Positions 21,021-27,300 of a stretch of DNA of 60,068 bases are shown in pieces. Source of the stretch: a virus. The DNA lies in IMG/VR virus record IMGVR_UViG_3300015371_000037, positions 1 through 60,068 of that record, one strand, 5' to 3'. The notes beneath the pieces are model-generated. The model was not told the DNA's origin and did no database searches. It was given only the letters and a program-made list of their open reading frames with translations. A program made the position numbers and the translations under genes. Position 1 is the first letter of the stretch. The number at the start of each line of letters is the position of its first letter.

Positions 21021-21306
21021 CGAAGCCATCATTGGAGCCTTTGCGGCGCTGACCGCTCTCGTGACCGCAGTGTTCACCGGCTTGGTTTCGCTTCGTCATG
21101 CAAAGAGGATCAACGCGACGGCCGACGCCTTGGAGTTGCGAGCATATAGAGAGGCCTGGATCTGGGCGATACGAACGATCTGGGCCCTGCTTGCGCTCTT
21201 GGGCAGGCACAACGTACCGGAGCCAGACGGCATACGCGAGGAGTTGGATAGCCACCAATCATCGATCGACAACCCGACAGAGTTCTACAAGAAGGAGTTG
21301 GCATGA
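21013..21306 (+). CDS. Small membrane protein, TTG start
   Basis: The 97-residue product (MSSEAIIGAFAALTALVTAVF) has one N-terminal membrane helix followed by a charged helical domain. GAGGTGAG precedes TTG 21013 and the gene overlaps the previous one by eight bases. The topology resembles small phage lysis accessory proteins. It is likely co-expressed with the holin-like gene and the collagen-like gene, whose ATG overlaps its stop. Confidence 0.65.
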   Translation: MSSEAIIGAFAALTALVTAVFTGLVSLRHAKRINATADALELRAYREAWIWAIRTIWALLALLGRHNVPEPDGIREELDSHQSSIDNPTEFYKKELA

Positions 21307-22082
21307 CCGATCACGTTCGGCCGCCAACGCCGCGCATGGTGAGGATTGCTTGGGGTGGGTTTGCCTTCGCCATCGTGGCGGCCGCAGCCATTGTGATTTA
21401 CCTTGCAATATGGGGATCTGGGGAATCCAAAGGCAAGGATCAAGCGAACGCTGGCAAGTCTCAAGCGCAAGCTGAGACCGTGGACCTCGCGGCACAGGTC
21501 CAGACGATATGTCGCGCCGGAGGACAACCGGCAGCGAAGCTCAACGCGGCAGGGCTCTGCGGACAGACCAAGGAGATCGTTGAGCAAGGGCCGAAGGGTG
21601 ATACCGGCGACACCGGTGATGTCGGTCCTCCAGGCCCACCAGGTCCACCTGGCCGGGATGGGCAATCACCACCATGCTTGCTCCAGGCCAACCGTTGCGT
21701 CGGAGCTACCGGAGCAATTGGGGCCGTGGGCCCCATTGGTCCAGCCGGCAAGACCGGTCTCAAGGGAGACAAAGGCGACACTGGGGATCAAGGGGTGAAG
21801 GGAGACACCGGGGACCAAGGTGCAAAAGGAGATACCGGCGATCAGGGCTTGAAGGGAGATACCGGAGCACCGTGTGCGCCAACGATCCCTGAGTGTCGCG
21901 GGCCACAAGGAATCCAAGGTGAGAAGGGAGATCCGGGTGCTCCGGGTGCTCCGGCCTATCCGTTTGACTTCATCTTCGTTATACCCGGTGACGGGACTCC
22001 TCTCAACCCAAGTCGTACGTATGATTGTCACATCGAAAACCCAAGCACACCAGCAACGTGTGCGGAGCGGAGTGCATCATGA
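21303..22082 (+). CDS. Membrane-anchored collagen-like protein
   Basis: The 259-residue product has a cytoplasmic start, one membrane helix (about residues 16-37), a short coiled linker with two Cys, then about 45 Gly-X-Y triplets in three blocks (GPPGPPGPPG, GLKGDKGDTG, GIQGEKGDPG) broken by two cysteine-containing inserts, and a small C-terminal domain. Gly-X-Y repeats form trimers. In phages these are usually virion fibres, but an N-terminal anchor and position in the lysis cassette suggest a membrane-tethered trimer. Role unknown. Confidence 0.8.
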   Translation: MTDHVRPPTPRMVRIAWGGFAFAIVAAAAIVIYLAIWGSGESKGKDQANAGKSQAQAETVDLAAQVQTICRAGGQPAAKLNAAGLCGQTKEIVEQGPKGDTGDTGDVGPPGPPGPPGRDGQSPPCLLQANRCVGATGAIGAVGPIGPAGKTGLKGDKGDTGDQGVKGDTGDQGAKGDTGDQGLKGDTGAPCAPTIPECRGPQGIQGEKGDPGAPGAPAYPFDFIFVIPGDGTPLNPSRTYDCHIENPSTPATCAERSAS

Positions 22083-22243
22083 GTGAGAACATGGCCGAAG
22101 TTCCCGAGCCGACCGACGACAACACGCCGGACGGAACGCAACTGCCCATCGAGGGTTCGGATGACGAGCCCAACCAGGACGTTGACGCCGGAGTCGGTGG
22201 CGCCGACATCGCGTATGACGAAGACCCATTCCAGGAGGACTGA
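22079..22243 (+). CDS. Acidic 54-residue protein
   Basis: ATG 22079 overlaps the collagen-like stop and the stop overlaps the amidase start, so it is coupled on both sides. The product is strongly acidic and probably disordered (EVPEPTDDNTPDG ... DEDPFQED). No function is recognised. Confidence 0.6.
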   Translation: MSENMAEVPEPTDDNTPDGTQLPIEGSDDEPNQDVDAGVGGADIAYDEDPFQED

Positions 22244-23064
22244 TGGTCACATACATCTCAAGGGCTGCGATCGGCCTTGTGCCGCCGAACGGCTCACACG
22301 CCCTGGTCCCGTCGCAGGTCCTCAACACCGCGTTCCACTACCCTGGTATGGCCAAACCCATCAACGCTGTTGGGGATGCCGGACTGGCGCGGGTGAAGTC
22401 GGCGCTGCGCGGTTGGCAGACGTACCACATGAAGACGCGCGGCTGGAGCGACATCGCCTACTGCTTGGGCATTGACCAGGTTGGACGCGCGTACACCCTG
22501 CGAGGCATCAACATCCGGTCGGCTGCGAACGGCGGTGCCCAGGTGAACCTCAACTACGGTGCTGTTCTACTGATCCTGGGCAACAACGAAGCTCCGTCAG
22601 CCGCGATGATGGCGACGGCTCGTGCGGTCATGGGTGACTACCGCGTGCGCTTCTCTCGTGTCCCTCGCCGTCCAACCTGGCACGGAGCGATCCGGCCCGG
22701 TGGAACCGCAGCCGATCCATCGACGGACTGCCCGGGCAAGCTCACCATCGCTGCCATCAAGGCCGGCAAGTTCGATGCCGGATCCACACCCGTACAGCCG
22801 CCCAAGCCACCAACCTCACCACCGAAGGACGAAGACATGCCACTCAACCAGGCCGACAAGGACTTCATCACCGGCGAGTGCCAGCGGTACGCCGTCGCCA
22901 ACAACAACTACACGCGGCAGGTCCTGGCGACCTCCACCAAGGCGATCCTCAACGCCATCGATGAGGTGGACGAGGAGACGGCCAACCGGGTGGAGGCGCA
23001 GCTCAAGGACGAGTTCCAGCGACTCGAAGACCAGCTGGAGGTTCCGACCAACCCAAATCCCTAG
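22243..23064 (+). CDS. Endolysin, N-acetylmuramoyl-L-alanine amidase
   Basis: The 273-residue product has an Amidase_2/PGRP-type catalytic domain. Zinc ligands are readable as His32 (FHYPG), His147 (WHGAI) and Cys163 (TDCPG), and WSDIAYCLGIDQVGRAY is the usual core. A Pro-rich linker (PVQPPKPPTSPPKDED) leads to a charged helical C-terminus. It cleaves the bond between MurNAc and the stem peptide. There is no signal peptide, so it needs a holin. The gene ends in CCCAAAT CCC TAG, an apparent -1 frameshift site leading into 23058-23615. Confidence 0.88.
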   Translation: MVTYISRAAIGLVPPNGSHALVPSQVLNTAFHYPGMAKPINAVGDAGLARVKSALRGWQTYHMKTRGWSDIAYCLGIDQVGRAYTLRGINIRSAANGGAQVNLNYGAVLLILGNNEAPSAAMMATARAVMGDYRVRFSRVPRRPTWHGAIRPGGTAADPSTDCPGKLTIAAIKAGKFDAGSTPVQPPKPPTSPPKDEDMPLNQADKDFITGECQRYAVANNNYTRQVLATSTKAILNAIDEVDEETANRVEAQLKDEFQRLEDQLEVPTNPNP

Positions 23065-23096
23065 ATGCCCGCACCATCCTTCTGCGGAACGGATGG
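23037..23096 (+). promoter_or_regulatory. Putative -1 programmed frameshift signal
   Basis: Three elements lie in order. GGAGG at 23037-23041 is SD-like and is followed by ten bases. C CCA AAT at 23052-23058 fits X XXY YYZ in the amidase frame. The stop TAG is at 23062. A hairpin follows, with arms CCATCCTTC (23074-23082) and GAA-C-GGATGG (23087-23096): nine pairs, one bulged C, and a UGCG loop closed by C-G (UNCG type). The layout matches known bacterial stimulatory signals such as dnaX; the 15-base spacer before the stem is longer than usual. Confidence 0.7.
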
Positions 23097-23615
23097 AGTC
23101 CAGGCGAGGCAACAGACATCATGCTCGGCATCCAGTTCGCTGAGTCCAAGTGGACTCCTCCTGGCGGCACTGAGGGTGCGTATCTCGATGCCGTGGGTGA
23201 CATCGCCGGAGCACGGCTGGGCCCGTATCCGACGAAGGAAGCCGCACAAGCCGACTACGGTGCTCGCAAGACATCCGGCAAGCAGGTCCCGATTCCTGTT
23301 GCATACAAGCAGGAAACGTTCAAGGGCCAGACCGGATGGTGGGCAATCAACACCGTCTGGGGATGCTCAGTCGGCGGTCCGCAGATCAGGTGCTTGGATG
23401 ATCCGTCATCCGGCAACCACGCCGACACGTTCCGTGACGCAGCAGTTCTGCATGATGATCCGGACGCACAGGCAAGAGCGGCGTGGGAGATCAGCAGCCA
23501 CGGAACGAAGTTCGATCTGTGGTCAACGTACCGGAACAAGAGCGACCTTCCGTACAGAGGGAAGGACTACACGTTGCGCCGTGGTCACCCTCGCGCAGCA
23601 GATTGGGACATGTAG
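23058..23615 (+). CDS. Lysozyme-like domain, probably expressed by -1 frameshift from the amidase
   Basis: This frame is open from 22965, but there is no ATG, GTG or TTG before ATG 23121. Coding-like sequence starts right at the amidase end: SLDARTILLRNGWSPGEATD, then MLGIQFAESKW with the likely catalytic Glu at 23142, DAVGDI, WWAINTVW and AAWEISSHGTKFDLWSTYRN. That pattern fits the lysozyme/lytic transglycosylase superfamily. Starting at 23121 would delete the first helix. A -1 slip at 23052-23058 would give a 457-residue amidase-lysozyme endolysin. A sequencing or natural frameshift is the alternative. Confidence 0.7.
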   Translation, partial: SLDARTILLRNGWSPGEATDIMLGIQFAESKWTPPGGTEGAYLDAVGDIAGARLGPYPTKEAAQADYGARKTSGKQVPIPVAYKQETFKGQTGWWAINTVWGCSVGGPQIRCLDDPSSGNHADTFRDAAVLHDDPDAQARAAWEISSHGTKFDLWSTYRNKSDLPYRGKDYTLRRGHPRAADWDM

Positions 23616-23945
23616 ATGAGCAACAACGAACCGGCTCCGGCGAGCAAGAGCAAGCCGGTCATCATCCTGGGCGGTGTCGCTGCTGCTTGCACAGCAGTGG
23701 TGGGAGTTCTGGCGACTATCGACGGCGTGCCGCCAGTCGTGACTGCGGTTGTCGCCGGTATCGCTACGGTGTGTCTCGCCGTGGCCGGATACCTCACGAA
23801 CAACATCACCGTTCCCAACAAGAATGTGGTGGCACGCTACGTGGATCAGACCGGACAGGTTGTCGCCGGTCCTGCCGCAAAGCTCACTGCAGGTGTGGAT
23901 TCCGGCGAGGCAGTACAAGTCACAAACCTTCCTCCGGCGAACTAA
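23616..23945 (+). CDS. Holin, two membrane helices
   Basis: ATG 23616 immediately follows the lysozyme-frame stop. The 109-residue product has a short polar start, two hydrophobic helices (PVIILGGVAAACTAVVGVLA and VVTAVVAGIATVCLAVAGYLT) joined by a short turn, and a polar C-terminus. This is a typical class II-like holin layout right after the endolysin. A strong hairpin follows the gene and ends the lysis cassette. Confidence 0.75.
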   Translation: MSNNEPAPASKSKPVIILGGVAAACTAVVGVLATIDGVPPVVTAVVAGIATVCLAVAGYLTNNITVPNKNVVARYVDQTGQVVAGPAAKLTAGVDSGEAVQVTNLPPAN

Positions 23946-26730: not shown

Positions 26731-27300
26731 ATGAAGAAGATCCTGGGGCTGCTTGCCGTGGGCGTAACGGCTGCTGTCATGGCCGTTGCTGGCCCGACCC
26801 AAGCAGAGGCGTACAGCGGGCAGTCCGGCTGGGGAGAATGGCTCATACCCACCGGAACGATCTGCCTGGAGACGCAGGGCACCGCCGTCCTCGCCGGTGT
26901 CGCAGCAGACTGGAACAAGAGCGATGCCGTCATCGTCGGTAGGACCAAGTGCACCGGCTTCGCCCGGAACATGACGGTCAAGTACGTTGGCGTCAACAAG
27001 CCGACGAACCCAGCCTGTGCTTGGGCCTACTCCGACGACGGTTGGACACGACGGAACGTGCGTGGTCTGTCGATCCTGACTCCGAATGCTCCGACCGTGT
27101 ACATCAACTACGGCGCCAGCAAGTCAGGGTGCCGTGGTAACGCTCTGATGGTCAAGCACGTCTATGAGCACGAGTTCGGCCACATCCTTGGCCTCGCTCA
27201 CAACAACGAGCCGTCCGTGATGGCGCAGGGTGCGCCGTATGGATGGGCATACAACGCGCCGACGAAGCTCGATATCTGGCGAGTCGGCTACCGCTACTGA
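26731..27300 (+). CDS. Secreted metzincin-type zinc metalloprotease
   Basis: The 189-residue product has a clear Sec signal peptide (MKKILGLLAVGVTAAVMAVAG ... AEA), then a mature domain with HEFGHILGLAH at residues 147-157, the extended HExxHxxGxxH zinc motif, and a Met-turn SVMAQ (Met164). Three or four cysteines suggest disulphides. Such matrixin/astacin-like enzymes are rare in phages. It would act outside the cytoplasm on host envelope or environmental proteins. RBS AAAGGAGGAAGG is strong. A catalytically dead paralogue is at 32535. Confidence 0.85.
   Translation: MKKILGLLAVGVTAAVMAVAGPTQAEAYSGQSGWGEWLIPTGTICLETQGTAVLAGVAADWNKSDAVIVGRTKCTGFARNMTVKYVGVNKPTNPACAWAYSDDGWTRRNVRGLSILTPNAPTVYINYGASKSGCRGNALMVKHVYEHEFGHILGLAHNNEPSVMAQGAPYGWAYNAPTKLDIWRVGYRY

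Follow-up and report, generated by a model that had tools for sequence, protein, structure and literature searches.

Predicted -1 ribosomal frameshifting joins an amidase to a lysozyme-like domain in a phage lysin gene and recurs in related lysins

Introduction

Endolysins are treated as the product of one gene as one polypeptide, or as two polypeptides made by internal starts. The lysis region analysed here raises the question of how a second lytic domain is translated when its frame offers no start codon at the place where its protein sequence begins. The window, a stretch of 60,068 nucleotides from IMG/VR virus record IMGVR_UViG_3300015371_000037, carries an amidase gene followed by a lysozyme-like frame in the -1 register. 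We found that the two very probably constitute one gene recoded by -1 ribosomal frameshifting. On sequence evidence, this would be a modular lysin coding strategy shared by several viruses, because CCCAAAA followed by a stop also joins other pairs of wall-degrading enzymes in related actinophage-like genomes.

Results

The lysis region of an actinophage-type virus

The major capsid protein of the window matched those of Mycobacterium, Gordonia, and Microbacterium phages. This suggested that the window derives from a virus of actinophage type, with actinobacterial-type phage relatives. The lysis region is located 3' of the tail genes and comprises, in order, a collagen-like protein, a small ORF, the amidase, the lysozyme frame, and a small putative membrane protein (Table 1). 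The amidase matched the phrog_1493 endolysins with an E-value of 2.9e-14 over residues 1-221, which covers the catalytic domain, while its C-terminus is coiled-coil-like. No family match was found for the small putative membrane protein, for which the role of holin is probable. The collagen-like protein adjoining the lysis genes consists of Gly-X-Y repeats and was also present in G003, L024, and L029. Further 3' of the lysis region, positions 26731-27300 encode a protein of 189 aa that apparently carries a signal peptide and has the zinc-metalloprotease motif EHEFGHILGLAHN.

Table 1 Features of the lysis region and of the predicted frameshift junction in the window.
Feature	Position	Strand	Basis or remark
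Collagen-like protein	21303-22082		Upstream end of the lysis region
First lysin, PGRP-type N-acetylmuramoyl-L-alanine amidase, 273 aa, stop TAG	22243..23064	+	phrog_1493; G003 relative
Shine-Dalgarno-like GGAGG, 10 nt 5' of the heptamer	23037..23041	+	Sequence; duplex energy
Slippery heptamer C CCA AAT, in amidase phase	23052..23058	+	Ten other lysin contigs have CCCAAAA at this place, also in phase
Predicted -1 frame module, SLT_3 lysozyme-like, 187 codons post-slip, 457-aa fusion	23052..23615	+	PF18896; L191/L193 homology
0-frame stop TAG, three nt past the heptamer	23062..23064	+	Spacing 3 nt in nine relatives, 6 nt in L105
Predicted stimulatory RNA stem-loop, beginning 7 nt after the heptamer	23066..23111	+	-20.1 kcal/mol; contains hairpin 23074-23096
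First ATG of the lysozyme frame	23121..23123	+	Judged not the start
Small putative membrane protein, probable holin	23616..23945	+	Starts directly after the lysozyme stop; G004 neighbour 72% identical

Two close phage relatives of the window, G003 and G004, were without the second lysozyme. The G003 amidase, which is 64% identical, terminates at the corresponding position, and the next gene comes immediately after it. G004 encodes another lysin and a 72% identical copy of the gene that follows the lysozyme in the window. Since the G003 amidase stands alone and G004 has another lysin, the lysozyme is an extra module in this phage. As in G003, the amidase by itself is probably a complete lysin. 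The comparison argues against a simple broken fusion gene.

Protein conservation begins at the slip site

The lysozyme frame lies at -1 relative to the amidase and is open from 22965 to 23615. An earlier note on this DNA, made from the sequence alone, had proposed a -1 frameshift partly on the ground that this frame contains no ATG, GTG, or TTG before 23121, which our analysis bore out. The frame matched the SLT_3 profile (PF18896) with an E-value of 3.5e-6 and 27.8 bits, close to the gathering cut-off of 27 and covering profile positions 36-89 only; the homologous -1 modules of L191 and L193 scored 56 and 53.5 bits. For the lysozyme, AlphaFold gave only low-confidence models (pLDDT 35.5 and 45.1). 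Direct searches of phages, plasmids, IMG/VR, and genome contigs with the window lysozyme returned no relatives, and its relatives were reached solely through the junction-motif scan described below.

The window lysozyme is 43 and 47% identical to the -1 modules of L191 and L193, and the three align colinearly between PKSL, at the slip site, and a common C-terminus, RA-DWD. This agrees with the earlier note, in which the frame was said to encode good protein sequence from the end of the amidase. The 23 residues before the first ATG of the window were conserved about as well as the remainder, with 9 of the 23 common to all three lysozymes. Because conserved domain residues (PKSL.A..IL...G) precede ATG 23121, we judge from the alignment that this codon falls inside the domain and is not the start. 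The -1 frame of L191 has no start codon until 221 nt past the stop. Four GH19 relatives have an ATG at 23 nt.

Anatomy of the junction and predicted slippage

The heptamer CCCAAAT is in phase with the amidase as the earlier note had stated, but three bases, not four, separate it from the TAG. The placement of GGAGG ten bases upstream was correct. The predicted hairpin at 23074-23096, with nine pairs and a UGCG loop, is real (-11.0 kcal/mol); it carries a one-base bulge and sits inside the longer stem-loop of Table 1. Across the junction, the frame marked by third-position G+C changes from that of the amidase to -1, a change that is gradual and noisy. We screened the plus-strand ORFs of the window for an in-phase heptamer at most 60 nt from the stop, a -1 frame that stays open for over 50 codons beyond the stop, and the absence of an earlier -1 start codon. 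The amidase was the only ORF showing all three, and therefore the arrangement in the window is not due to chance.

We propose that most ribosomes would terminate at the TAG and yield the 273-aa amidase. A fraction of the ribosomes positioned at CCA AAU would slip back by one base, with both tRNAs re-pairing on CCC AAA, probably with help from GGAGG on the 5' side and the stem-loop on the 3' side. These ribosomes would read past the TAG in the -1 frame and produce an amidase-lysozyme fusion of 457 residues, the length given in the earlier note. We infer that the slippage occurs, and likewise its efficiency and its purpose, which may be to set the ratio of one- to two-enzyme lysin. The junction peptide would differ from the NPK-SLDAR proposed earlier, since slippage after decoding leaves an Asn: in ordinary tandem slippage, AAU is read as Asn before the shift, which would give ...TNPN-SLDAR and the diagnostic tryptic peptide LEDQLEVPTNPNSLDAR. 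Slippage before the decoding of Asn would give ...NPK.

The junction recurs in lysins with different domains

A protein-only search retrieved 65 IMG/VR loci with related amidases, 59 of which, the window included, had a readable end. Only three of these 59 amidases (the window, L027, and L029) had CCCAAAN in phase close to the stop, with the CCA codon exactly 9 nt ahead of the stop in each case. The same three carry a second lytic domain in the -1 frame, which in L027 and L029 is GH19-like and not SLT_3. A profile search with the GH19 module then recovered L102, L104, and L105, in which the heptamer and the -1 entry (PKSL...) recur; a scan of genome contigs with this module found no relatives. 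The first enzyme of L104 is a distinct PGRP-like protein, and those of L102 and L105 are M15-like peptidases by motif only, with no Pfam match for that of L102. All five lysins found by protein search thus have an in-phase CCCAAAA, a stop 3-6 nt later, and a second lytic domain in the -1 frame, as the frameshifting proposal had asked of homologues. The protein-fetched loci contained 1,152 ORFs with a length of 150 aa or more; CCCAAAN in phase within the last codons occurred in only six, all of which were these lysins.

We expanded the search with an exact scan of IMG/VR for the 15-base sequence GCCCCAAAAGCCTGA, which returned 74 stretches. We then kept stretches whose 0-frame is open upstream and whose -1 frame is open downstream; lysins remained, together with recoded genes of other kinds. 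Five further lysins were identified: L152 and L154 combine an amidase with GH19 (L154 is cut by the contig end), L191 and L193 combine an amidase different from that of the window with SLT_3, and L209 combines an amidase with a GH12-like domain. Because a DNA motif retrieved these five, they are no evidence that the heptamer is conserved, but the content of their -1 frames still counts. The GH12-like module (L209:1376-2026, minus strand) has NopAA and family-12 cellulases as its best solved relatives, an unexpected fold for a phage lysin.

Across the 11 contigs, a PGRP/Amidase_2 or M15-like enzyme comes first and is followed by SLT_3, GH19, or GH12-like domains. The heptamer CCCAAAT was unique to the window, while the other ten lysins have CCCAAAA. 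All 11 sequences came from IMG/VR, and the arrangement was seen in no isolate phage of the GenBank set. In the fetched loci, these modules never occurred as one continuous reading frame. With unrelated enzyme pairs meeting at the same signal in ten other contigs, this looks like a widespread and unreported route by which one- and two-enzyme lysins could be made from a single message. We also consider it likely, with less confidence than the frameshift itself, that the junction of recoded lysins (CCCAAAA, stop, and stem-loop) is portable and acts as a swap point for N- and C-terminal hydrolases while setting the mix of single and double enzyme. The combinations observed at this point involve N-terminal PGRP amidases and M15-like peptidases and C-terminal SLT_3, GH19, and GH12-like domains.

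Signs of translation and stimulatory elements

In the GH19 lysins, differences between the slip site and the first ATG numbered 12, 8, and 33 at -1 codon positions 1, 2, and 3, respectively. This third-position pattern suggested that the stretch is translated in the -1 frame, as such translation predicts. The same substitution-phase test on L191 and L193 was noisy, and a third-position excess stood out only in the initial part of the amidase and immediately past the slip.

The RNA 3' of the 11 junctions was found to fold more strongly (mean z -2.04) than control windows of 60 bases from other parts of these genes (mean z -0.12; Mann-Whitney p = 7.5e-6). The stem of the window has a z of -2.0, and only 3% of the control windows in the same genes were equally low. 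The Shine-Dalgarno-like element of the window has a duplex energy of -8.8 against -4.4 +/- 2.5 for shuffles; outside the window it is strong in L027 alone, and it is not a common feature of these lysins. Among frameshift motifs in E. coli, the V_VV.A_AA.R class is the most efficient; it includes the frameshift-prone CCCAAAA but not CCCAAAU (PMC4066793). The Shine-Dalgarno-like element and the stem of the window may compensate for CCCAAAU. Four sequence features expected of -1 frameshifting were found: an in-phase heptamer, a -1 ORF without a start where conservation begins, conservation in homologues, and stimulators. The heptamer, the -1 second domain, and the downstream structure of the homologues support the frameshifting reading of the earlier note.

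Alternative explanations

We considered whether the lysozyme could be a separate gene, started at ATG 23121 or at a non-AUG codon and translated by coupling. A separate gene with a lost start was favoured at first, given that TAGATG recurs at the next gene and that the G003 amidase stands alone, and the lysozymes of L027 and L029 at first also seemed separate with an ATG of their own. This reading was dropped because the heptamer and the -1 reading proved to be present in L027 and L029 as well. We now regard a separate gene as improbable. ATG 23121 does exist, with a weak GAGG about 11 nt upstream, the four GH19 relatives have their ATG 23 nt past the stop, and the lone G003 amidase fits; however, conserved residues of the domain come before ATG 23121, L191 runs 221 nt past the stop without a start, the GH19 lysins conserve -1 protein between the slip site and their ATG, and the constant presence of the heptamer would be left unexplained. 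An internal in-frame start, as in two-product endolysins, was rejected since the second frame is -1 and its first start lies inside the conserved domain.

An even less probable explanation is an error of one base in sequencing or assembly, or a frameshift mutation of recent origin. A change of one base could start the lysozyme at the ATG in TAGATG (23062-23067), a sequence that also forms the junction to the next gene (23613-23618), or could fuse the frames. Against this, ten contigs from different samples have the same frame offset at the same place, and the modules had no continuous in-frame counterpart in the fetched loci. Transcriptional slippage at the A run would yield the identical protein, and sequence alone cannot separate it from ribosomal slippage. 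Runs of three or four A's, the length present here, are short for polymerase slippage, and the heptamer lies in codon phase with a structure downstream, as ribosomal slippage requires; we consider the transcriptional route highly improbable.

Relation to known frameshift genes and endolysins

Tail assembly chaperones are the classic phage frameshift genes. Like the G/GT chaperones, the proposed recoded lysins carry an X XXY YYZ heptamer immediately ahead of the 0-frame stop and a -1 extension without its own start. Unlike G and GT, which are scaffolding proteins, both lysin parts are cell-wall hydrolases acting at lysis, and their N- and C-terminal modules vary independently. A tail assembly chaperone in L143 (phrog_1749) has the identical 15-mer GCCCCAAAAGCCTGA as its -1 junction, and this 15-mer was also found in other tail-chaperone-like pairs. 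Because tail chaperones are classic frameshift genes, the L143 chaperone is a useful positive control.

Actinophage lysin A is an example of a bifunctional endolysin, with amidase and glycosidase domains. Such endolysins resemble the predicted recoded lysin in having two lytic domains per polypeptide. They usually consist of one continuous frame with a fixed 1:1 content of the domains, whereas the frame of the recoded lysin is not continuous. Ms6 lysin A, CTP1L, and LysIME-EF1 give two polypeptides per endolysin gene via internal starts (PMC9430671, PMC3314691), and frameshifting is unmentioned in both papers. Those endolysins come in a long and a short form encoded by a single lysis gene, as the recoded lysin would. 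The short form of the internal-start endolysins is the C-terminal part, whereas the short form of the recoded lysin would be the N-terminal enzyme and the long form would need the frameshift. No frameshift in an endolysin was found in the literature searched, consistent with the earlier note's view that none had been reported. The mechanism of frameshifting is already known, and its use in an endolysin appears to be new.

A conserved frameshift would lead gene callers to report the amidase alone, with the second enzyme missed or truncated, so that lysin catalogues and enzybiotic screens would examine half-enzymes. It would extend phage frameshifting from tail chaperones to lysis, and it raises the question of whether lysis needs a set ratio of mono- to bifunctional lysin.

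Other possibly recoded genes

The window also contains a tail-chaperone-like pair (11111-11704/11418-11939) that overlaps at +1 (or -2) and has no X XXY YYZ heptamer near the stop. This phage seems to recode its tail genes by a type different from that of its lysin. Among the other genes found with the motif, a head-fibre-like protein (phrog_4366; L140:1110-2146, minus strand) ends in GCCCCAAAAGCCTGA and has a 170-codon -1 extension, possibly representing a recoded head decoration protein. Two related proteins in L175 (2658-3796) and L201 (minus strand, motif at 2820-2834) have the same -1 junction, with an extension of 153 codons.
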